NCBI RefSeq assembly: GCF_000024265.1
Contig: NC_013204.1
Span: 2,980,501 to 3,044,500 of the forward strand
DNA length: 64,000 nucleotides
From: Eggerthella lenta DSM 2243
GTDB lineage: Bacteria > Actinomycetota > Coriobacteriia > Coriobacteriales > Eggerthellaceae
Direction: 5' to 3'
A model generated the notes under the pieces. The model was not told the DNA's origin and did not search any database. It worked only from the letters and a program-made list of their open reading frames with translations. Positions within the stretch are counted from its first letter, which is position 1. Each line of letters starts with the position of its first letter. A program made the translations under genes and the position numbers. Of the stretch, positions 6,696 to 36,832 are shown piece by piece.

Positions 6696-9332
6696 CTACA
6701 GCAGCATGTCGCGCGCAGCCTGAAGGGCCGCGTCGATGCCCGAGGCGTCTTTGCCGCCGGCCTGCGCCATGGCGGCCTTTCCGCCGCCGCCGCCCTTGAT
6801 GTTCCCCGAGATCGCCTTGATGACGGCGTCTGCGTCGAAGCCCACCTCCACCGCCTCCGGCGTGCCGGCCGCCAACAGCGTGGGCTTGCCGTCTTTCTCC
6901 GTGGCCAGCACCGCGGCGCCCGGCTGGCCCAGACGCGCGCGCAGCACATCCCACATATTGCGCATCTGACCCGCATCGGCCTCCGGCATGCGGCCGAACA
7001 CTACCGGATAGCCCGCAGCGCTCGTCTGCGCGGTCTCGAGCAAGGCGTTGATGCCGTCGTCGGCCACGGCCTCGCGCCCACGCTTCAGCTTCGTCTGCAG
7101 GTCTTTCAAGGTCTTCATGTTCGATGCCGTGCGCTCGCTCACGTCGAACAGGGGCACGCGCAAAGACTCGGCCGCCTCCTTGAGCTCAGCCTCCACGCGA
7201 TTCATGTACGCAAGCGCGTCGAAGCTGGTCACGGCTTCGATGCGACGCAGGTTCGCGCCCACGCTGGTCTCGGAGGTTATCTTAACGAAGCCGATTTCGC
7301 TCGTAGCCGAAACGTGGGTACCGCCGCACAGCTCCTGCGAAAAGCCCTCGATGTCGAGCACGCGCACGAACTCGCCGTACTTCTCGCCGAACAGCGCCAT
7401 GACGCCGGCTTCGCGTGCCGATGCGAGCGACGTCTCGTAGGCGCGCACGGGATGATTCTCCATGATCTTCTGGTTCGCCAGGCGCTCCACCTCGGCGATC
7501 TGTTCGGCCGTCATGGCCTCGAAGTGGGTGAAGTCGAAGCGCAGACGGCTGTCGGCGACGTAGCTGCCCGCTTGCTTCACATGATCGCCCAGCACCTCGC
7601 GCAGCGCCCAATGCAGGATGTGCGTAGCGGTGTGGTTGCGGCGGATACGCTCGCGGCGCGGCACGTCGATGGCGGCATGCACGGCATCGCCCGCGCTCAA
7701 GCGACCGCTCTCCACCTTCACGGTGTGCGCGATCAGGCCCTTCTCGGGCTCCTTCGTGTCCAGGACCGCCACGATGGCATCGTCCTTCGCAAGCACGCCG
7801 GCGTCGCCGATCTGGCCGCCCTTCTCAGCGTAGAAGGGCGTAGCGTCCAACACCACGCGACCCTCGTCGCCCGCCTCCAGCACATCCACCTGCACGCCGT
7901 CTTTCACGAGCGCCAGCACGCGCGCTTCGGCGTCGTTCTTCGTATAGCCGAGGAATTCGGTGGGACCCACGGCCTCGAGGATCTCGTTCATCACGCCGCC
8001 ATAGGTGGACCAGGCCGCCTCGGCGTCCTTCGTATTGGCAGCGCGAGCGCGCTCGCGCTGCTCGTCCATGCAGCGGCCGAAGCCTTCCATATCAACTTCG
8101 ATGCCGCGCTCGTCGCACAGCTCTCGCGTGACCTCCACGGGGAAGCCGTACGTATCGTGCAGCGTGAACGCGCGGTCGCCCGGCAGCACCTCGCCCTCGA
8201 GCTCGGCCAGCGCCTCGTCGAGGAACGCGCGGCCCTGGCGCAGGTTTGAGCCGAAGCGCTCTTCCTCGGACAGGATGACGCGCCGCGTGAGCTCGCGGTT
8301 CTCCACGATCTCAGGGTACACGTGACCCATGAGGTTCACGATCTCGTCGACGTAATCGTTGAGGAACGGCTTGTCGAGGCCCAGCAGATGGCCCTTCATC
8401 ACGGCGCGACGCAGCAGACGGCGCAGCACATAGCCGCGGCCTTCGTTGGAGGGCAGGATGCCGTCGGCGATCATGAATGCCACGGCACGGCTGTGATCGG
8501 CCATGATGCGCAGCGATAGGTCGATGGCCGCGTCCTCGCCGTACGTCGTTCCGGTCAGCTTCTCGCCCACCGCCACGAGGCTGCGCAGCACGTCCGTCTC
8601 GTAATTGGACTGGACGCCCTGCAGGATGGCCGCGATGCGCTCGAGGCCCATGCCGGTGTCGATGTTCTTCTTCGGAAGGGGCACGAACGTACCGTCTTCC
8701 TGTCCGTCGTACTGGGTGAACACGAGGTTCCAGTACTCCAGGAAGCGGTCGCAGTCGCAACCAGGCGCGCAGTCGGGGCTGCCGCAGCCGAAGTCCTCGC
8801 CCTGATCGAAGTAGATCTCCGAGCAGGGGCCGCAGGGGCCCGTAGGCCCGGCACGCCAGAAGTTGTCATCCTCGCCCAGGCGCGAGATATGGTCGTCGGG
8901 CACGCCCAGCTTCTTCCAGATCTCGATGGTCTCGTCGTCGTCGAGATACACGGTGAAGTACAGGCGCTCGGCCGGCAGGCCCAGCACCTCGGTGGAGAAT
9001 TCGTACGCCCACGCGCACATCTCCTCCTTGAAGTATTCGCCGAAGCTGAAGTTGCCCAACATCTCGAAGAAGCTCTGGTGACGGCCCGTGGTGCCGATGA
9101 TGTCGATGTCGTTCGTGCGCACGCACTTCTGCACCGTCGTCGTGCCGATGTAGGGGGCTTCAAGGTGCTTCTGCTGCAGGAAATACGGCTTGAACTGCAC
9201 CATGCCGGCGCTCGTCAGCAACAACGACGGGTCGTCGGGAATGAGCGATGACGAGGGCCAGCGCTTGCAGCCCTTCTCCTCGAAAAAGCTCAGGTACTTC
9301 TCGCGGATCTCCGCGCTGGTCATGTACTTCAT
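6696..9332 (-). CDS. alaS: alanine--tRNA ligase
   Basis: Charges tRNA-Ala and edits misacylated Ser/Gly. The 878-residue protein is full length. The class II catalytic core is at the N-terminus (FFEEKGCKRWPSSSLIPDDPSLLLTS is the start of motif 1, abbreviated here to its region). The editing domain carries HTATHILH (residues ~565) and CGGTHVS (~665), the zinc/editing quartet. The C-terminal DHHA1 region ends in the glycine-rich GGGGGKAAMAQAGG. GGAGAT lies upstream; an alternative ATG three codons later is possible. No T-box leader is visible in the 103-bp gap upstream. Confidence 0.97.
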   Translation of the reverse strand: MKYMTSAEIREKYLSFFEEKGCKRWPSSSLIPDDPSLLLTSAGMVQFKPYFLQQKHLEAPYIGTTTVQKCVRTNDIDIIGTTGRHQSFFEMLGNFSFGEYFKEEMCAWAYEFSTEVLGLPAERLYFTVYLDDDETIEIWKKLGVPDDHISRLGEDDNFWRAGPTGPCGPCSEIYFDQGEDFGCGSPDCAPGCDCDRFLEYWNLVFTQYDGQEDGTFVPLPKKNIDTGMGLERIAAILQGVQSNYETDVLRSLVAVGEKLTGTTYGEDAAIDLSLRIMADHSRAVAFMIADGILPSNEGRGYVLRRLLRRAVMKGHLLGLDKPFLNDYVDEIVNLMGHVYPEIVENRELTRRVILSEEERFGSNLRQGRAFLDEALAELEGEVLPGDRAFTLHDTYGFPVEVTRELCDERGIEVDMEGFGRCMDEQRERARAANTKDAEAAWSTYGGVMNEILEAVGPTEFLGYTKNDAEARVLALVKDGVQVDVLEAGDEGRVVLDATPFYAEKGGQIGDAGVLAKDDAIVAVLDTKEPEKGLIAHTVKVESGRLSAGDAVHAAIDVPRRERIRRNHTATHILHWALREVLGDHVKQAGSYVADSRLRFDFTHFEAMTAEQIAEVERLANQKIMENHPVRAYETSLASAREAGVMALFGEKYGEFVRVLDIEGFSQELCGGTHVSATSEIGFVKITSETSVGANLRRIEAVTSFDALAYMNRVEAELKEAAESLRVPLFDVSERTASNMKTLKDLQTKLKRGREAVADDGINALLETAQTSAAGYPVVFGRMPEADAGQMRNMWDVLRARLGQPGAAVLATEKDGKPTLLAAGTPEAVEVGFDADAVIKAISGNIKGGGGGKAAMAQAGGKDASGIDAALQAARDMLL

Positions 9333-9435
9333 AGTCGTGTCTTTCTATCTCCTCGGGGGCCGCCTCGCACGACCCGCTGCTCCACTAACGACGTGCGCCC
9401 GCACGCCCCCACGCGCTCAGGCCAACAAAGCCCGA

Positions 9436-10725
9436 TCAACGCTTCTTACGATGCTGCGCCTTCTGATCGGCCTCGGCCTTGCGCTGCTCGACGCGCTCGA
9501 ACGCCGCCGAGATGTCGGGATGCGGCGACGTGGCATCGGCGATGGGATCGAGCGTGCCGTCCGAGGCGGTGGTGCCTTGGAAGAACACGCCGTCTGCGCT
9601 TACCAGCTGCCGCCCCATGCGCTTTTCGAAATAATACACGAAAACCGACTTCGCAACCGCGACGGCGGGAATGGAAGCCAACATACCCACAAGCGAGCCC
9701 GTGAAGCCGCTCATAGCGCCGCCTATAGCGGAGCCCGCCATCAAAGCGATGAGGGTGAGCGCCGGATGAACGTCCACCGAGTTCGCCATGATCTTCGGCG
9801 AAATAAACGTATAGACGATCTGCTGGATGGCAATGGTGCCGCCGAGCGCGATGACCGCGATCCAGGGGCTGACGAACACGCCCACGATGGCCGCAAGCGC
9901 ACCGCCGAGCCACGGGCCCACGATGGGGATGATGTTCAACAGGCCGGCGATACCGCCGAGCGCCGCGTAGTTCGGGATGCCGATGGCGCCGAACAGAACG
10001 ACGCAGCCCACGCCGATGATGGCGCACTGCAAAAGCGTGCCCTTGATGTAGCCGCCCATGACGCGCGTGAACGTGACGTGCAGCATTTCCAGATCCTCGT
10101 GGCGCTTCGGGTTGACGAGGCGCATGCATTCGCGTCCAAGCTGCGGAAGCTCCATGAGGATCCAGAAAGCCACCACCAGCGCAAACCCGAGCGCAACGAA
10201 CGTGTTGACCAGACCCGTCCCGATGGCGACCACGCCGTTGGCGCTATCGCGGGCGAACGTCGAAGCCCATGAGACGATGGCGTCCAGCGCATTGTTGATC
10301 CACGTTTGCACCGTGTCGTTCTGAAGCACGTCGGCGTAGCGCGTGTACAGGTCGTTGCCCCACCCGGCGATGGTCTGAACGTAGCCCGGAATGCTCTCGA
10401 TGAGGTTGGTGAACTGGTCGCCCACGCCGAACGCCGGCGAGAACATGAGAAGCCCCACCAAAGCCAGAACAACGAACATCAGGACGTAGGCGATCGTCGT
10501 GCCGGCCACGCGGGGAACGCCCAGTTTCTCCAGCTTGTTCACCGGTCCTCGCAGGCAGAATACGATGACGATGGACCAGATGACGATGCCGATAGGCACG
10601 CTCAAGATATTGAACAGGTAAACGAGAACGCCCGTGAGCAGAATGCCGCCCACGATCGTCCAGACTATGAGAAAGCTTCGCTTCGCTTTGTCGGTTTTCG
10701 TCGCTTCGGAGCTGGGAGTCTCCAC
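9436..10725 (-). CDS. AI-2E family transporter (PerM/TqsA-like)
   Basis: A 429-residue polytopic membrane protein of the AI-2E transporter superfamily. About eight hydrophobic segments are visible (e.g. SFLIVWTIVGGILLTGVLVY near residue 17). The family's characteristic central region and GLLNIIPIVGPWLGG loop are near residue 270-285. Substrates vary across the family (autoinducer-2 export, Na+/Li+ antiport), so transport specificity cannot be assigned. The start is a GTG with AAAGGG 7-8 nt upstream. A charged C-terminal tail rich in K/R/Q follows the last membrane segment. It lies 32 bp downstream of the DUF948 gene. Confidence 0.85.
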   Translation of the reverse strand: METPSSEATKTDKAKRSFLIVWTIVGGILLTGVLVYLFNILSVPIGIVIWSIVIVFCLRGPVNKLEKLGVPRVAGTTIAYVLMFVVLALVGLLMFSPAFGVGDQFTNLIESIPGYVQTIAGWGNDLYTRYADVLQNDTVQTWINNALDAIVSWASTFARDSANGVVAIGTGLVNTFVALGFALVVAFWILMELPQLGRECMRLVNPKRHEDLEMLHVTFTRVMGGYIKGTLLQCAIIGVGCVVLFGAIGIPNYAALGGIAGLLNIIPIVGPWLGGALAAIVGVFVSPWIAVIALGGTIAIQQIVYTFISPKIMANSVDVHPALTLIALMAGSAIGGAMSGFTGSLVGMLASIPAVAVAKSVFVYYFEKRMGRQLVSADGVFFQGTTASDGTLDPIADATSPHPDISAAFERVEQRKAEADQKAQHRKKR

Positions 10726-10757
10726 CGAGTCGCCCTTTCGTGCCGTGTATGCTGTCG

Positions 10758-11519
10758 TTACTTGCCCTGGTTCGCTTTTTCGTCTGCGTCGTACGTGAAG
10801 TACTGCTGCGCAGCTGCGGCATCGGCGTTCGCGGCGGTAGCCACGGCATCGGCCATGGTGGCGGCGACTTCGGACGTCTTATCGGCGGCGACGCGTTTGG
10901 CTTCGGCCTTCTCGTCTCGCTCGGCACGCTGCTCGGCGCGTTGCTCGCGCTGGTCGGCAACGGCCTCCTTCGCGGCCGCGACCGAGGTGGTCACCACGCC
11001 CTTGACGACGTCGGCGGTCGAAACGGGCACTTCGGTGCCGTTTCCGTTCGCACCATGGGAGGCGGAGCGCTCGGCTTTCGCCTGGCCGAGGGCAACCGAC
11101 TCGTCGCTGGCGCGGCGCGACTTGAACGCGTTGCGCACACGCGAGGTCACGTTGTTCACCAATTCCACCGGAGCATTGGTCACCGTGTCCACCGCTTCGA
11201 CGGCCGAGGCCACCGAGTCGGTGATTTCGTTCACGTCTTCGAGAATCTGATCGACGCGCATGATCTCGAGGTTGGCGGCATCGACCGTCAGCGACACACG
11301 CTCCACCAGCGGATCCACCTTCGCCGCGACGGGCTCGAGCGACGCCGTGATACGCTCCACGCTTGCCAGCGTAGGCTCGACCTGCCTCTGCAGATCGTCG
11401 ACCGTCTTGCGTGTCTTGCGCACGGTCATGACAAGCTCGATGACGAGCCACACCAGCACCGCGCCCACGATCACATAGACCACCGGCAACGCTATGCTGA
11501 GAATTTCGCTGATATCCAC
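10758..11519 (-). CDS. DUF948 domain-containing membrane protein
   Basis: A 253-residue protein with one N-terminal membrane segment (residues ~8-28, LSIALPVVYVIVGAVLVWLV) followed by a long helical region and an Ala/Glu/Arg-rich tail typical of a coiled coil. The region after the membrane segment matches the DUF948 type (VDDLQRQVEPTLASVERI). Function is not established; DUF948 genes often lie near alaS, AI-2E transporter and ruvX genes in Gram-positive genomes, as here. The GTG start is supported by AGGAGG 7 nt upstream. Confidence 0.8.
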   Translation of the reverse strand: MDISEILSIALPVVYVIVGAVLVWLVIELVMTVRKTRKTVDDLQRQVEPTLASVERITASLEPVAAKVDPLVERVSLTVDAANLEIMRVDQILEDVNEITDSVASAVEAVDTVTNAPVELVNNVTSRVRNAFKSRRASDESVALGQAKAERSASHGANGNGTEVPVSTADVVKGVVTTSVAAAKEAVADQREQRAEQRAERDEKAEAKRVAADKTSEVAATMADAVATAANADAAAAQQYFTYDADEKANQGK

Positions 11520-11624
11520 CGTATGCCTCCTGTTTCCGAAGCCATTACTATAGCACGAGCACCTTGGATGATATACAGGCCGAGGTCAACTTTTCACCCT
11601 GCTTCCACAGGAGTAGACAATCGG

Positions 11625-12965
11625 TTACCTTCCGCGCGACGTGGGGTTTTCTCCGGAATCCAGACGGTCTCGCGCGAACGTGTCGCTGCGGTAGGCCTCC
11701 CAACCGCGATCGCTCGACCGGTAGAAGCAGCCGCGCTCCAAACCGTCGGGCAGGTAGCGCTGGCTCACCCAGCCGCTGGGGTAGCTGTGCGGATACTTGT
11801 ACTCGCCGTAGTTCTCGGATCCGGGGCGGTGCCGATCGCGCAGATGGTCGGGCACGTTGCGAGACGGCCCGTTGCGCACCTCGTTCAGCGCGGCATCGAT
11901 GCCCGCCTCCGCCGCGTTGCTCTTGGGCGCGAGCGCCAGGTAGATGGCAGCCTGCGCCAGGTTGATGCGGCACTCGGGATAGCCGATGACCTCGGCCGAC
12001 TTGAACGCGGCCTCAGCGATGAGCAGCGCCTGCGGATCGGCGTTGCCGATATCCTCCGACGCAGCGATGAACATGCGGCGCGCGATGAACTTCGGGTCTT
12101 CTCCCCCATCGATCATGCGGGCGAGCCAGTACAGCGCGGCATCGGGGTCGCTGCCGCGCATGGACTTGATGAACGCCGAGATGACGTCGTAGTGCATGTC
12201 CTTGTTCTTGTCGTAGGGCAGCGAGCGATGCGGCGTGGCCGCGCGCACGTTGTCCTCGGTGATCTTCGCGGGCTTCTTCGAGGTGCCGGGCTGCACCATA
12301 CCAGCGGCAAGCTCCAACGTGGTGAGCGCCGCGCGCCCGTCGCCGCCCGCCAGCAGCACGATGGCGTCGCGCGCTTTGGCATCCAACCGATAGCGGCCGC
12401 CCAGGCCGCGCTCGTCGGCCAGCGCACGCTCCACGAGGCTGACGATCTCCTCGTCGGACAGCCCGTGCAGCTCCACCACGCGCGAGCGGCTGATCAGCGC
12501 CGAGTTAACCTCGAAGAAGGGGTTCTCCGTTGTGGCTCCCACCAGCACCAGCACGCGATCCTCCACGGCGTGCAGCAGCGCGTCCTGCTGGCTGCGGTTG
12601 AAGCGGTGGATCTCGTCGACGAACAGGATGGTGCGCAAACCGAACGCCGACAGGCGCTTGTCGGCGGCATCGATTTCGCGGCGCAGATCCGAAACCGTGC
12701 CGCCGATGGCCGACACCTCCACGAACGTAGCCTTCGTCGTCTCGGCGATGACGTGCGCGAGCGAGGTCTTGCCCGTGCCCGCCGGGCCGAACAGGATGAC
12801 CGAGCTCAACTGGTCCTGCTCGATGGCGTTGCGCAGCCACGAGCCGGGGCCCACCGCCTCGTCCTGGCCGACCACTTCTTCAAGCGTGCGCGGACGCATG
12901 CGCACTGCCAAGGGCGCCACTTCCGACTTCCGCTCGTTTTCCATTTCGGTAAATAAGGTATCCAT
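11625..12965 (-). CDS. rarA: replication-associated recombination protein A (AAA+ ATPase)
   Basis: RarA/MgsA clamp-loader-like AAA+ ATPase acting at stalled replication forks. Motifs in order are the N-terminal PLAVRMRPRTLEEVVGQ, Walker A GPAGTGKTS (~residue 60), Walker B ILFVDEIHRFN (~110), sensor 1 GATTENPFF and the C-terminal MgsA domain (ASEDIGNADPQAL, KSNAAEAGIDAALNEV). At 446 residues it is full length. In many Gram-positive genomes the gene neighbours 6S RNA, as it does here (13.2 kb). Confidence 0.95.
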   Translation of the reverse strand: MDTLFTEMENERKSEVAPLAVRMRPRTLEEVVGQDEAVGPGSWLRNAIEQDQLSSVILFGPAGTGKTSLAHVIAETTKATFVEVSAIGGTVSDLRREIDAADKRLSAFGLRTILFVDEIHRFNRSQQDALLHAVEDRVLVLVGATTENPFFEVNSALISRSRVVELHGLSDEEIVSLVERALADERGLGGRYRLDAKARDAIVLLAGGDGRAALTTLELAAGMVQPGTSKKPAKITEDNVRAATPHRSLPYDKNKDMHYDVISAFIKSMRGSDPDAALYWLARMIDGGEDPKFIARRMFIAASEDIGNADPQALLIAEAAFKSAEVIGYPECRINLAQAAIYLALAPKSNAAEAGIDAALNEVRNGPSRNVPDHLRDRHRPGSENYGEYKYPHSYPSGWVSQRYLPDGLERGCFYRSSDRGWEAYRSDTFARDRLDSGENPTSRGR

Positions 12966-13197
12966 GCCATATATCGTATCATGCGAACGCTTGTTTGCCT
13001 AGCGGACGTTGCATTGTAGGCCGAAAAACTCGGAATCGCGCCCGAAAACGAGGCCTTCGGGCGACAACGCGCTCCCGTCCTCGCATTCCGTCGCTCGATC
13101 CGCAGCCGCTCGGCATGTAGAAGACCGGGTTGTGTAATCGGCGAAACAACCGGATGTCAAGTCTTTATTTTAACGATGCTACCCATATACTCAAAAG

Positions 13198-29387: not shown

Positions 29388-29441
29388 TTCACAGGACGAA
29401 CATGAGTCGATCACGTGTTCTTCAAGGCTTACTTTTATACT
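29388..29441 (+). promoter_or_regulatory. promoter and upstream element of small RNA copy 1
   Basis: TTCACA (29388-29393) begins exactly 54 nt before the end of the -10 TATACT (29436-29441); the predicted start G is 8 nt further on. The same layout occurs upstream of copies 2 and 3. No clear -35 hexamer is visible, so an activator binding near -60 is plausible. Confidence 0.6.
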
Positions 29442-29448
29442 TGATCTC

Positions 29449-29580
29449 GCAAACGAAAGAATCCCCTCCTTTCAGTTTGTACTGCTTTTCCCCTTACAAA
29501 GCAGTGGCGGCACCTCGGTGCCGCACATCCCCCTCCTTGTGGCCCGGTGGAGCTCCCCTCTCCCCGGGCCGATCTGTTTC
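29449..29580 (+). ncRNA. repeated structured small RNA, copy 1 (C-rich, anti-SD-like loops)
   Basis: A ~132-nt predicted transcript. Hairpin 1 (29449-29480): GCAAAC/GTTTG stem with loop AATCCCCTCC. Hairpin 2 (29481-29505): ACTGCTTT/AAAGCAGT, loop with TCCCC. Hairpin 3 (29507-29524): GCGGCAC-CTCG-GTGCCGC. Then single-stranded ATCCCCCTCCTTGT and a terminator hairpin (GGCCCGG/CCGGGCC, 29541-29570) followed by GATCTGTTTC. The CCTCCTTTC in hairpin 1 equals the usual 16S rRNA 3' end. No open frame is shared with copies 2 and 3. Likely a trans-acting small RNA that pairs with Shine-Dalgarno regions (inference). Confidence 0.78.
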
Positions 29581-29784
29581 TCGTACCCGCACACGCCCGC
29601 TTCCGCATCATCGACCAACGCATATCATCGTAGAACATGTTACTTCAGGTCGATGCCGCTTTGAGGCAATGCCGTTCGCCAACCTTTCGCTCGCCAGATT
29701 TCTGCGGCGCGGCGCCCATCGGAAAACTTCTTTTCCTGACTCTTTTGATCCTTGTTAACGAACCGTTACTCTGCGACCCATCGT

Positions 29785-29838
29785 TTCACAAAACGCGCAC
29801 GCCCGCATCATACGATGTGCGCGAACGACCCGTATACT
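29785..29838 (+). promoter_or_regulatory. promoter and upstream element of small RNA copy 2
   Basis: TTCACAAAAC at 29785 and -10 TATACT at 29833-29838, the same 54-nt span as copies 1 and 3. It shares GCATCATA and CGTTACT upstream with copy 3. Confidence 0.6.
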
Positions 29839-29845
29839 AGCAGCT

Positions 29846-29978
29846 GTAAACGAAAGACTCCCCTCCTTTCAGTTTGCCTCTGCTTTACCCCCTTAGAAGC
29901 AGAGCGATGCGCAAGCGTCGCATCATCCCCCTCCTTGTGGCCCGGTGGAGCTCCCCTCTCCCCGGGCCGATCTGTTTT
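29846..29978 (+). ncRNA. repeated structured small RNA, copy 2
   Basis: Same architecture as copy 1. Hairpin 1 has the loop ACTCCCCTCC. Hairpin 2 is CTCTGCTT/AAGCAGAG with CCCCC in the loop (29878-29904). Hairpin 3 is GCGATGC-GCAA-GCGTCGC (29904-29921). Then CATCCCCCTCCTTGT and the terminator hairpin 29939-29968 with TCTGTTTT. Stem sequences in hairpins 2 and 3 differ from copy 1 but stay paired, which is covariation. No gene lies downstream within 1.4 kb, so this copy is best read as a free-standing RNA. Confidence 0.8.
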
Positions 29979-30120
29979 CATGCCCCTCGCTTCGTCGAAC
30001 CCGCCGAGACAATGCATGGAGCCCGCGCCCACGCAGCGGCAGAGCGGCAGAGCGGCAGAACCTCCGCCTGAGCCGTCACCCAGTCACGTCCCTCGCTGCG
30101 AACGCGCGATTTCGCCAACC

Positions 30121-31357: not shown

Positions 31358-31411
31358 TTCACAAAACATGCACTCGTGCATCATATGATATTCAATGTCA
31401 ACTTTTATAAT
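31358..31411 (+). promoter_or_regulatory. promoter and upstream element of small RNA copy 3
   Basis: TTCACAAAAC at 31358 and -10 TATAAT at 31406-31411 with the fixed 54-nt span; GCATCATA-GAT is shared with copy 2. AGGGTTTTCCCT, related to a palindrome upstream of nrfA, lies ~50 bp further up (31299-31310). Confidence 0.6.
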
Positions 31412-31418
31412 AGCTTCA

Positions 31419-31550
31419 GCAAACGAAAGGCTCCCCTCCTTTTCAGTTTGCATCTGCTTACCCCTTAAAGCAGAGCGGCACCCAATAGGTGCCGCATCAT
31501 CCCCTCCTTGTGGCCCGGTGGAGCTCCCCTCTCCCCGGGCCGATCCTTTT
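31419..31550 (+). ncRNA. repeated structured small RNA, copy 3 (5' of a dehydrogenase gene)
   Basis: Same four-hairpin layout. GCAAAC/GTTTGC with loop GCTCCCCTCC; TCTGCTT/AAGCAGA with ACCCC; GCGGCACC-CAATA-GGTGCCGC; then CATCCCCTCCTTGT and the terminator hairpin 31512-31541 with TCCTTTT. Its end is 17 nt before the dehydrogenase ATG, whose ribosome-binding site (GGAAGGA) lies just past the terminator. So this copy may act as a free RNA by termination, or as a conditional leader if read-through occurs. Copies 1 and 2 have no downstream gene, favouring the small-RNA reading. Confidence 0.76.
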
Positions 31551-31567
31551 CTCGGGAAGGAACGCCT

Positions 31568-32626: not shown

Positions 32627-34471
32627 TCAACGCGCGGCCTTGCAAGCAGTGAACGCGGGGACGGGCTTCACGTCCGACACCGCCGCATCGGTCAAGCGGG
32701 ACGTTTCGACCGCCCCGTCGAAATACGTCACCGTGAATACGTCTTCGTCGGCGACTTCAACGCCGTTCACTTTGAGCGATCGCACTTTGCGGTCTGCATC
32801 ATAGTCCACCTCGGCTCCCGACACCTCGTAGCGGAACGGAGCAAGGGCCTCCTTCGACGCGTCCTTCCGCTCGAACGTGCGCCCGCTCTCTAGCACCGCG
32901 CGCAGGTCTTCGCCCGAAATGCGCGCAGTGGCCAGCGTAGGCACCGGCTTCCCCGCATTGGGCAAGAGCACGGTCAGCTCATTGGCGTGCAGCTCCCCTT
33001 CGTACAGCTTGCCGGAAATCCCATAAGGATGCATTTGGCCGTCTGCCATGCCGCCAGGCAGCATAAGGCACAGGTCGGTGCCCCCGTACTCCCTGAACGC
33101 GTCGGCGAAGTATCGGACGGTCTCCTCCCGGCTCAGGTCGCGTTCGATATGTGCCACTACGTCGCCGATCTGGGTTTCCGACTTGTTGGACTTCATAGCC
33201 TCGTCGCAGGCCTGCAACGCTTCCTCGGCGCTGACGGTGCCAGCGATGTACCCGCCCAGCGCCTCTCCTCCCAGCAAGAGCGGCGCAGTGTAAGCCGCCA
33301 ACTCCACAAGGTTATTGCGGTCGACCACGTTGCGGTAATCGCTCAAAAGCGGCGCGTGGAGCTCGCCGTCCGCCTTTCTCGTGGCCGGATATCGCCCTTC
33401 CGCGCCATCCGTGAACATGCTCTGGCCCTCGGGGGTGCTCATCAGGTCGAACATCTCCAGCGCTATGGCCAGCTTCTCCTCGTTGCCCGGCTCTTCCAGC
33501 TTCTTGTTAATACCGTAGTACGAGCTGACCGCATACAGGTACCAGCCGTTATCTTCGCCCTCGCCTCTCGCAAGGAACGGAGCTTGGCCCAAATCGAAGT
33601 CGAAATCAGTGGTCTTCACGTTGTTGGCAACGCCGTAGATCATGGCCACGTCACCGTTCGCGAACATCTCCGCGGCGTCCGAATTCGACAGGGAAAGGTC
33701 GTCAGCCGAAATCAATCCGCTGTCGAGCCAAAGCCGATACTCGTCCATGAAAGGCCCGAACGTGCCCACCATGCTCGCTTCGCCCGCAAGATAATCCTGT
33801 TCCCAAGACGACCCCTGCGGCGTGTGCAGAAACTGCGCCGAAGCGATATTGGTCAGCTGCAGGAAGCGTTGACCCGTCAGCTCCATCGAGTACGCCATAA
33901 GCCGGATGCCCTCCGCCTTCGCCTGCTCGTTGAGGGCAATGAGTTCCTCGAGCGACTGAGGCGCCTCCCAGCCGTGCTCGGCGAAAAGGTCCTTGTTGTA
34001 GAAGAACCCTGCAAGCGTCAGGTAACCCGGCAGATAGTAGAGGCTGCCGTCGATGGTCATGCGATCGAGAACGCTGGGAAGGTACTCGCTGGAAAAATCG
34101 TACGCCGCGAGATCCACCAGATTATGCTCCAAATCCTCGGTCAGATCCTGATTGCGCGTGTTGATCAGGATATCGGGGATATCGCGCTGCTCGAGCTCGG
34201 TGACGATCTGCGCGGAATAGTTGCTGTTCGAATACGTATCGAACTCGAAGCGCAGGTTGGGGTGGCGATTGGTCATCTCGTCCAACAGCTCCTGCGGCAG
34301 CTCCTTGGTCTGGCATTTCGATACCGTCAGCACTATCTCATCGTCGCGTCCGGACGCATTGCCCATAGCCTCGCCGGAACAGCCGACCAGTCCGATGCCG
34401 ACCAGCGACCCCGCTAGCACGATCGACGCGAACGTCTTCGCCGCCTTACCGGCTCTCTTCAACGCTTTCAC
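32627..34471 (-). CDS. solute-binding lipoprotein fused to a 5'-nucleotidase C-terminal-like domain
   Basis: A 614-residue protein with a lipoprotein signal (GSLVGIGLVGC, acylated Cys31). Residues ~45-440 form an ABC sugar-type extracellular solute-binding domain (VSKCQTKELPQELLDEMTNR; DIPDILINTRN; GYLTLAGFFYNKDLFAEHGW). Residues ~455-610 resemble the 5'-nucleotidase C-terminal domain: YFADAFREYGGTDLCLMLPG, YGISGKLYEGELHANELTVL and ATARISGEDLRAVLESG. The catalytic metallophosphatase domain that normally precedes it is absent. No ABC permease is nearby. It overlaps the EAL protein gene by 26 bp, so it may be the sensory partner of that signalling protein rather than part of a transporter. Confidence 0.72.
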   Translation of the reverse strand: MKALKRAGKAAKTFASIVLAGSLVGIGLVGCSGEAMGNASGRDDEIVLTVSKCQTKELPQELLDEMTNRHPNLRFEFDTYSNSNYSAQIVTELEQRDIPDILINTRNQDLTEDLEHNLVDLAAYDFSSEYLPSVLDRMTIDGSLYYLPGYLTLAGFFYNKDLFAEHGWEAPQSLEELIALNEQAKAEGIRLMAYSMELTGQRFLQLTNIASAQFLHTPQGSSWEQDYLAGEASMVGTFGPFMDEYRLWLDSGLISADDLSLSNSDAAEMFANGDVAMIYGVANNVKTTDFDFDLGQAPFLARGEGEDNGWYLYAVSSYYGINKKLEEPGNEEKLAIALEMFDLMSTPEGQSMFTDGAEGRYPATRKADGELHAPLLSDYRNVVDRNNLVELAAYTAPLLLGGEALGGYIAGTVSAEEALQACDEAMKSNKSETQIGDVVAHIERDLSREETVRYFADAFREYGGTDLCLMLPGGMADGQMHPYGISGKLYEGELHANELTVLLPNAGKPVPTLATARISGEDLRAVLESGRTFERKDASKEALAPFRYEVSGAEVDYDADRKVRSLKVNGVEVADEDVFTVTYFDGAVETSRLTDAAVSDVKPVPAFTACKAAR

Positions 34472-36749
34472 CGCGATCTCCGTTTCGCCTCATCGTATCG
34501 TCTAGTTTGAAATCCTGGAACTCATCGGCAGGCATTGGTTTTCCGAACACGTACCCCTGCACCACATTGCAGCCGACGCTCTCGAGGAAATCCACCTGTC
34601 CCATATCCTCGATCCCTTCGGCAACCGTTTCGATACGCATGTCGCGCGCTATGCCCACGATGCCGTTGACGATGCTCCTTGCCTTGTCCATGTCGGTATC
34701 TCCGCGGAAGAACCCCTGGTCAAGTTTGATGATATCCACTTCGAGACTACGCAACATGTTGAGGCTGGAGTAACTGCTCCCGAAATCGTCCATGGAGCAA
34801 CGTGCGCCTAACGCGTGGATGCGCCGAATAACTTGGTTGATCTCGCCGGTGCGATCGAACACGACGGACTCGGTGAACTCGAATTCCAGGTAGCGAGCCG
34901 GAACCTGGTTCTCGGCGATATGGCGCTCGTAGCGCGCGAAGAAATCCGAAACGTCGAAGTTCGAGCGCGAGACGTTGACGGAAACGCAGAAAAGCGGCCT
35001 CCCCTCCCGCTCCCATCGCTTCAACAAAGCGCACACCTGGCAAAACATGTAGAAATCCAGCTCGGCGATAACGCCGTCGCGCTCGAAGAGCGGAACGAAC
35101 TCGTTCGGGCAGAGCATACCTTCCGGAGAGATCCAGCGCACGAGCGCCTCGGCACCGACGATGCGGCGCTCGGGCAGCGCAACCTTCGGCTGCAAATACA
35201 TATGAAACTCGCCGTTCGCAAGCGCATGGGGAAAGCGATCCTCGAGCTCCTTCTCTCGAAGGAAGCGCCGACGGAGGCGATCATCATAGAAGCCAACGCG
35301 TGCGCCGCTTGGAAGCATCCGCTTCTCCGCGCTCGCACGCGCCAAGTTAGCCGCATCGGTCACAAGCGTGAACTCTTGCTCGAGCGCATCGTCGTCCAAT
35401 ATGTAAGCGCCGAAGTCCATCGACACGAGCACTTGCTCGCCGACGCTCTCGGATGTGAGCCTGAACTCGTTTAGACGCTCCTTTGTCGACGCCTCGTCAG
35501 GCTCGCGCAACAGAATGACGAAATGGTCTGCGGAGACGCGTGCCGCGAACTCGCCTTCGCGCAGCTGCCGCTCTATCATGTCGTACGCCGACCTGAGCAG
35601 ACGGTCTCCGCCCTCCTTGCCCTCGCGATCGTTGTACGACTTGAATTTGGCTATGTTGGCGTACACGAGCACCAAGTTGCGCGGATCCGTTCGGACGACG
35701 TCGTAATAGCGCTCGCGAAACCGGCCGGCCGTGTCTCCGCCGGTAACAGGATCCACGTAGGCGATGGCCTCCAACCGTCGACGATTGCGATGCTGCACGA
35801 TCACGATGAACAGCATGATCACGCCGAACACCAACGCCACCGTAACGCCCACCGCCACGGTCAGCAGATACAGGCTGTTCGTCCTCTGATCGACGTAATC
35901 GCTGGGAACGATGGACAGCAGATGCCAATCGCTCACGCCCACAGGCGTATAGCAGAAATACGAACTGACGCCGTTGTACTTCGCAAGAACGACGCCTTGC
36001 TCCCCCTTTTTGAGCCCCGCCCGCAGAACGTGGACCGGCTCTTCGTCATCGGCGTTCTGGCTCTCCAAAGCCGACACGATATTATACTCGCCGCTGATGG
36101 CCGTTTGATCCTCGGGACGCACCGCCACCGAACCGTCGTCCTTGACGATGCAGGCGTATCCTCTCCCTTCGAACGAATCGATGGACAGGAGCTGCAGCAT
36201 CTCGTCCACCCCGTACACGCCCGCAAGCGCCTTCATGTGATGCCCATCGATGACCGCGTTCACGGGAATTGAAAACACGAGCACATCCTGGCCGTCCATG
36301 GTCTCGATACCCGAGATGGAACGTTTGCCTTCAAGCAACGTCTTGTTGAGATAGTCCTGCGACCTGGTGTAGCGCTGCGTGGTGTCGGCGAAGTACCACA
36401 CGCCGTCCTCGTCCACATAAGCAAGACGGGACAGATTCCACCGATCCCTATCCTCGGCCATTTCTCCGTTCAGCTCGTCGAGCGTGGCGCCGTTCTCCAC
36501 CAACGTCATCTGACCGCGTTCGATGGTTTCCATCGCCGAGAATATCTGAGAGGTGACCGTGCGCACGTTCTCGGTGATCTGGCTGGATATATCAGCCAAG
36601 TATCCGATGCTGTCCTTGCGGGTAAGATTGCGAACCGTGTCCGAGTACGCGTGGACCAGCAGCGCTCCTCCTATAACGGCGACGATGACCACGGAGGCAA
36701 CGGCAGCCGCAAGCCCGATCATGCCTCTTTCGCCGCGCGCGTGCCTCAT
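34446..36749 (-). CDS. membrane sensor with degenerate GGDEF and EAL (c-di-GMP phosphodiesterase)
   Basis: A 767-residue protein. N-terminal membrane helix (~12-35), a ~260-residue extracytoplasmic dCache-like sensor, a second membrane helix (LLTVAVGVTVALVFGVIMLF), then GGDEF and EAL domains. The GGDEF signature is replaced by VSADHF, so cyclase activity is unlikely. The EAL domain is intact: AEALVRW, MDDFGSSYSSLNML, KLDQGFF, AEGIEDMGQ and the substrate loop GKPMPADEF. So it probably hydrolyses c-di-GMP in response to an external ligand. Upstream of, and overlapping, the solute-binding lipoprotein gene. Confidence 0.88.
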   Translation of the reverse strand: MRHARGERGMIGLAAAVASVVIVAVIGGALLVHAYSDTVRNLTRKDSIGYLADISSQITENVRTVTSQIFSAMETIERGQMTLVENGATLDELNGEMAEDRDRWNLSRLAYVDEDGVWYFADTTQRYTRSQDYLNKTLLEGKRSISGIETMDGQDVLVFSIPVNAVIDGHHMKALAGVYGVDEMLQLLSIDSFEGRGYACIVKDDGSVAVRPEDQTAISGEYNIVSALESQNADDEEPVHVLRAGLKKGEQGVVLAKYNGVSSYFCYTPVGVSDWHLLSIVPSDYVDQRTNSLYLLTVAVGVTVALVFGVIMLFIVIVQHRNRRRLEAIAYVDPVTGGDTAGRFRERYYDVVRTDPRNLVLVYANIAKFKSYNDREGKEGGDRLLRSAYDMIERQLREGEFAARVSADHFVILLREPDEASTKERLNEFRLTSESVGEQVLVSMDFGAYILDDDALEQEFTLVTDAANLARASAEKRMLPSGARVGFYDDRLRRRFLREKELEDRFPHALANGEFHMYLQPKVALPERRIVGAEALVRWISPEGMLCPNEFVPLFERDGVIAELDFYMFCQVCALLKRWEREGRPLFCVSVNVSRSNFDVSDFFARYERHIAENQVPARYLEFEFTESVVFDRTGEINQVIRRIHALGARCSMDDFGSSYSSLNMLRSLEVDIIKLDQGFFRGDTDMDKARSIVNGIVGIARDMRIETVAEGIEDMGQVDFLESVGCNVVQGYVFGKPMPADEFQDFKLDDTMRRNGDRGESVEESR

Positions 36750-36832
36750 AGGACATTATACTATTCGAAGGCCTGCCAGATGACGGCAGGCTTTCGCAAT
36801 CGCTCCGTTACGCTCGGCGACGGTTGTTCTCG

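Follow-up and report, generated by a model that had tools for sequence, protein, structure and literature searches.

A Lipoprotein of Eggerthella lenta Joining a Solute-Binding Protein to a 5'-Nucleotidase C-Terminal Domain Is a Likely Co-Receptor of the Adjacent dCache Receptor

The window, the whole 64,000-nucleotide stretch of Eggerthella lenta DNA that was analysed, encodes a lipoprotein in which a solute-binding protein (SBP) is fused to the C-terminal domain of the 5'-nucleotidases. The gene lies beside that of a membrane receptor with a dCache-type domain in every evaluable relative, so that the protein is more likely part of a sensor than of a transporter. We consider it likely that the lipoprotein is a membrane-anchored co-receptor of the adjacent dCache receptor, in which the ligand-loaded SBP would dock on the receptor and set its output and the 5'-nucleotidase domain would be a relic. 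The features of the gene pair, in window coordinates, are:

34477..34481, (-) strand: Shine-Dalgarno-like GGAGA, 5 nt upstream of the GTG start, from the sequence
32627..34471, (-) strand: fusion lipoprotein gene (SBP/5'-nucleotidase C), 614 aa
34379..34390, (-) strand: lipobox LVGC, residues 28-31, closing the signal peptide, from the sequence
33173..34351, (-) strand: SBP_bac_1 domain, residues ~41-433 (Pfam, 1.3e-18; 3quf, Z 32.6)
32630..33172, (-) strand: 5'-nucleotidase C-terminal domain, residues ~434-614 (Pfam, 3.7e-12; AlphaFold2; 3ive)
34446..34471, (-) strand: overlap of the fusion and receptor genes, 26 bp
34446..36749, (-) strand: receptor gene, membrane dCache-GGDEF-EAL protein, 767 aa; the start may be the second ATG, 36722
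36654..36710, (-) strand: first transmembrane segment of the receptor, residues 14-32, from hydropathy
35874..36617, (-) strand: extracytoplasmic dCache-type domain, residues 45-292, between the two transmembrane segments (subfamily profile; PctA match)
35796..35852, (-) strand: second transmembrane segment, residues 300-318, from hydropathy
35388..35705, (-) strand: degenerate GGDEF domain, SADHF replacing GGDEF (Pfam, sequence)
34536..35237, (-) strand: EAL domain with EALVRW, ExExTE, DDFG, AEGIE and VQG motifs intact
36755..36798, (-) strand: strong hairpin after galU (RNA fold, -21 kcal/mol, z -2.4), and a TATAAT box immediately before the receptor gene

The open reading frame of the fusion protein begins with a GTG codon, and the lipobox cysteine was invariant among 23 homologues. 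The Pfam family SBP_bac_1 (PF01547) matched residues 60-350 with 68.4 bits, against a cut-off of 26, and 5_nucleotid_C (PF02872) matched residues 450-583 with 47.1 bits, against a cut-off of 23.6. No Pfam match to a metallophosphatase domain was obtained at E<=1; the SBP occupies the N-terminal part of the protein, where the 5'-nucleotidase enzymes have that domain. The AlphaFold2 model of the full-length protein had a pLDDT of 82.7 and a pTM of 0.81, and residues 43-429 superposed on SBPs of the carbohydrate type, 371 residues aligning with 3quf at Z 32.6. Carbohydrate SBPs were also the best NCBIfam matches, none coming near its cut-off. When the C-terminal domain was modelled alone (pLDDT 88), Foldseek matched it to 5'-nucleotidases, and it superposed on 3ive with a Z-score of 16.6 and an rmsd of 2.6 over 159 residues. 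A profile of 23 members of this domain, searched against the PDB, retrieved above the noise only 5'-nucleotidases and SoxB (best 1.4e-17). Pfam, profile searches and structure prediction therefore agreed with a preliminary description of the sequence, which had proposed an ABC-type binding domain joined to the C-terminal half of a 5'-nucleotidase without the catalytic half; no other fold was matched.

That description had also noted that the gene overlaps one for a membrane EAL protein, and the overlap is 26 bp. The receptor gave Pfam scores of 2.5e-62 for EAL, 3.8e-13 for GGDEF and a sub-threshold 8.6e-06 for dCache_1. The isolated ectodomain scored 29.6 bits with dCache_1 (PF02743), under the curated cut-off of 45; 8 of 11 homologues matched the family at E<=0.1, and a profile search of the PDB matched the dCache domain of PctA (1.9e-06). 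The ectodomain is read as a divergent dCache-like subfamily. Since the EAL motifs are intact and the GGDEF motif is degenerate, the output of the receptor is probably c-di-GMP hydrolysis. The hairpin and TATAAT box between galU and the gene pair suggest that the two genes probably form their own transcription unit, although a promoter and terminator scan of this interval found neither a consensus promoter nor a terminator. There are two candidate ATG codons for the receptor, at 36749 and 36722; with the TATAAT box only 5 nt ahead of the first, the second may be the real start.

Elsewhere in the window there are three copies of an element of ~150 nt on the (+) strand (29436-29583, 29833-29981 and 31406-31554). 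The copies are ~70-87% identical and are the only ones found in the E. lenta genome. Each has a TATACT/TATAAT box, strong hairpins (z about -6.3) whose loops carry C-rich CCCCUCC(UU) sequences like anti-Shine-Dalgarno sequences, and an end resembling a terminator. The element matched nothing in Rfam and is a candidate small-RNA family.

The conservation of the gene pair was surveyed in about 400 (398) Coriobacteriia and 391 Clostridia genomes, together with named genomes, whose neighbourhoods were retrieved. The few seeds and the hits were picked by protein similarity, not by neighbourhood. The fusion family is sparse, occurring in 10 of the 398 Coriobacteriia and at least 8 of the 391 Clostridia genomes, and comprised 30 non-redundant fusions from Eggerthellaceae, Lachnospiraceae, other Clostridia and Anaerorhabdus. 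A signalling gene was adjacent to 26 of the 30 by automatic ORF calling. In two others (L047 and L134), a dCache-GGDEF-EAL partner had been missed by the ORF caller, due to long out-of-frame extensions in GC-rich DNA, and was assigned by hand; another (L051), where the contig ends at the gene, was left out of the evaluable fusions. Each of the 29 evaluable fusions, or its tandem copy, adjoins a receptor with the same dCache subfamily. For 28 of them the receptor is the next gene; the exception is the second of two tandem fusion genes that share one dCache-HK-REC-REC receptor (L181:5593-9482). In many pairs the two genes overlap, by 1-28 bp. The 28 distinct receptors belong to one dCache subfamily, all with E<=4e-64 to a profile that was built iteratively from the same receptors. 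The outputs beside the fusions are either GGDEF-EAL or histidine kinase-receiver modules. Thus, of the conserved pairing with an EAL gene that had been anticipated, the pairing with the dCache receptor stood (29/29), but the EAL domain as such is not the constant element, since many of the receptors are histidine kinases.

Chance neighbourhood as the cause of the pairing was ruled out by two sets of controls. A dCache gene of this kind was near only 2 of 55 unfused SBPs and none of 48 unfused nucleotidase C domains, most of the latter having short flanks (at least 3 kb on both sides in 11/48); Fisher p values for the dCache contrasts between fusions and controls were about 1e-20 and below. An ABC permease was found within two genes of none of the 30 fusions, whereas 47 of the 55 unfused SBPs had one nearby. 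By the tests made, the lipoprotein is neither a nucleotidase nor a transporter-linked SBP.

E. lenta has a full-length paralogue of the fusion (26% identity), which forms one cluster with dCache-HK-REC and REC-HD-GYP-GGDEF genes (L135, G000:C1:1600000-1616000, locus 6888-13137). A REC-HD-GYP gene is carried by at least four of the histidine kinase versions (L053, L067, L133, L135), and the kinase and GGDEF-EAL versions may therefore converge on c-di-GMP. SBP-only lipoproteins, without the nucleotidase C domain, adjoin the same type of receptor at two other loci (L211:2859-4379 and L212:4171-5547). Receptors of this dCache subfamily are also found with no SBP gene beside them (L200-L210), one instance being a third E. 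lenta receptor, a histidine kinase (L200, G000:C1:1497710-1498441). Together, the receptors without an SBP neighbour and the SBP-only pairs indicate that the SBP is the accessory part of a receptor system that need not have one, and that the C domain is generally dispensable for the pairing.

The mechanism that we favor would proceed as follows: 1) the SBP domain would capture a small ligand outside the cell, in all likelihood a carbohydrate-like one, 2) the closed, ligand-bound lipoprotein would dock on the dCache domain of the neighbouring receptor, and 3) docking would alter the cytoplasmic output of the receptor, in E. lenta the hydrolysis of c-di-GMP by the EAL domain, which is intact, and a histidine kinase-receiver phosphorelay in the relatives that have a kinase. 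The fused C domain would be a catalytically dead relic, serving as a structural or docking arm rather than as a nucleotide binder. A carbohydrate-like ligand in the SBP cleft would agree with the fold, by class only. The amino-acid dCache motif R.WY was absent in all of the receptors, which counts against that ligand class only.

It is very unlikely that the lipoprotein is instead an orphan binding protein of an ABC transporter, serving a permease encoded elsewhere, with the receptor as an incidental neighbour or a regulator of uptake. The SBP domain does have a normal SBP_bac_1 fold, and the genome has 20 BPD_transp_1 matches. However, the nearest of these, at ~19.1-20.6 kb in the window, are roughly 12 kb from the fusion gene, which bears out the earlier remark that permease genes are absent nearby, and the difference between 0/30 fusions and 47/55 unfused SBPs in permease linkage argues against a transport function. 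Moreover, E. lenta VPI 0255T is asaccharolytic, as well as non-motile (PMC3035228). The paralogous fusion in this species likewise adjoins a receptor, not a permease.

The C domain, with its correct fold, might be thought to bind a nucleoside or nucleotide and present it to the receptor, the ligand class that the preliminary description had put forward. The residues of UshA that bind the nucleotide, which we take by motif position to be R410, F429, N431, F498 and D504 in UshA numbering, have no equivalents in the E. lenta protein. The same set is gone in 20 of the 23 aligned members; in these, as in the E. lenta protein, the F498-D504 loop is deleted. The domain of the E. lenta protein is, in addition, cut short by ~20 residues at its end. 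The loss of these residues makes a nucleoside ligand unlikely and was the ground on which presentation by the C domain was rejected for the E. lenta protein; a role of this kind is highly improbable. A minority clade (L015, L128, L129) keeps equivalents of R410, N431 and D504 and, judging from these positions, could still bind nucleotides.

Within the co-receptor scheme, docking on the dCache domain could be mainly through the C domain, with the SBP domain acting only as the ligand sensor, a variant that is possible but doubtful. The C domain is present in 29 receptor-linked SBPs and in none of the 47 permease-linked SBPs sampled, and the distances of the C domain and the dCache domain are correlated (0.89). 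However, some SBPs that lack the C domain are receptor-linked all the same (L211, L212 and the second copy at L180), and the correlation is exceeded by that between SBP and dCache divergence (r = 0.94 over 28 pairs). These mirror-tree correlations were down-weighted, as they saturate at ~20% identity and groups of closely related sequences inflate them. Paralogous systems in the same genome are only ~12-30% identical per domain, so the SBP-dCache correlation is not a mere reflection of species relatedness. A broader conjecture, offered tentatively, is that the dead 5'-nucleotidase C domain was recruited as a dedicated receptor-docking module that made the SBP a portable sensor head for one dCache subfamily, in two phyla and with both kinase and c-di-GMP outputs.

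On the co-receptor reading, signalling through receptors under SBP control would also operate in gut anaerobes, with Eggerthella, Gordonibacter, Blautia and Coprococcus as examples. Annotation can easily mistake such proteins for transporters or nucleotidases; the signature of SBP plus 5_nucleotid_C without Metallophos points to a sensor and not to a transporter. The ~28 gene pairs offer material for studying the coupling of a single extracellular module to either kind of output, kinase or c-di-GMP. No description of the SBP plus 5_nucleotid_C architecture was found in the open-access literature, and one may exist elsewhere.

Several known systems share parts of this arrangement. The 5'-nucleotidases UshA and CD73 have the same C-terminal domain fold (Z about 14-16), but the E. 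lenta protein lacks their metallophosphatase domain, has lost the nucleotide-binding residues and is fused to an SBP. In the LuxP-LuxQ system of Vibrio, an SBP serves as the co-receptor of a membrane hybrid kinase; it belongs to a different SBP family and has no C-terminal nucleotidase-type domain. NspS is a PotD-like, single-domain polyamine binder. In the NspS-MbaA systems of Vibrio cholerae and Sinorhizobium meliloti, the ligand occupancy of the SBP sets the c-di-GMP output of the receptor (PMC8967002). The E. lenta pair likewise consists of an SBP gene and a membrane GGDEF-EAL receptor gene, which are adjacent, overlap by 26 bp and remain paired across relatives. In contrast to these Gram-negative systems, E. 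lenta is Gram-positive, its SBP is an SBP_bac_1 lipoprotein with a 5'-nucleotidase C domain and the GGDEF domain of its receptor is degenerate. In Ruminiclostridium cellulolyticum, the SBP lipoprotein CuaD binds the membrane histidine kinase of CuaSR and sharpens cellobiose sensing (PMC10384115). As in E. lenta, the lipoprotein is encoded with its membrane receptor, but CuaD (410 aa mature) has no such C-terminal domain and the CuaSR kinase drives an AraC-type regulator beside a transporter operon. The best-supported reading is that the E. lenta pair works like NspS-MbaA and CuaD-CuaSR.
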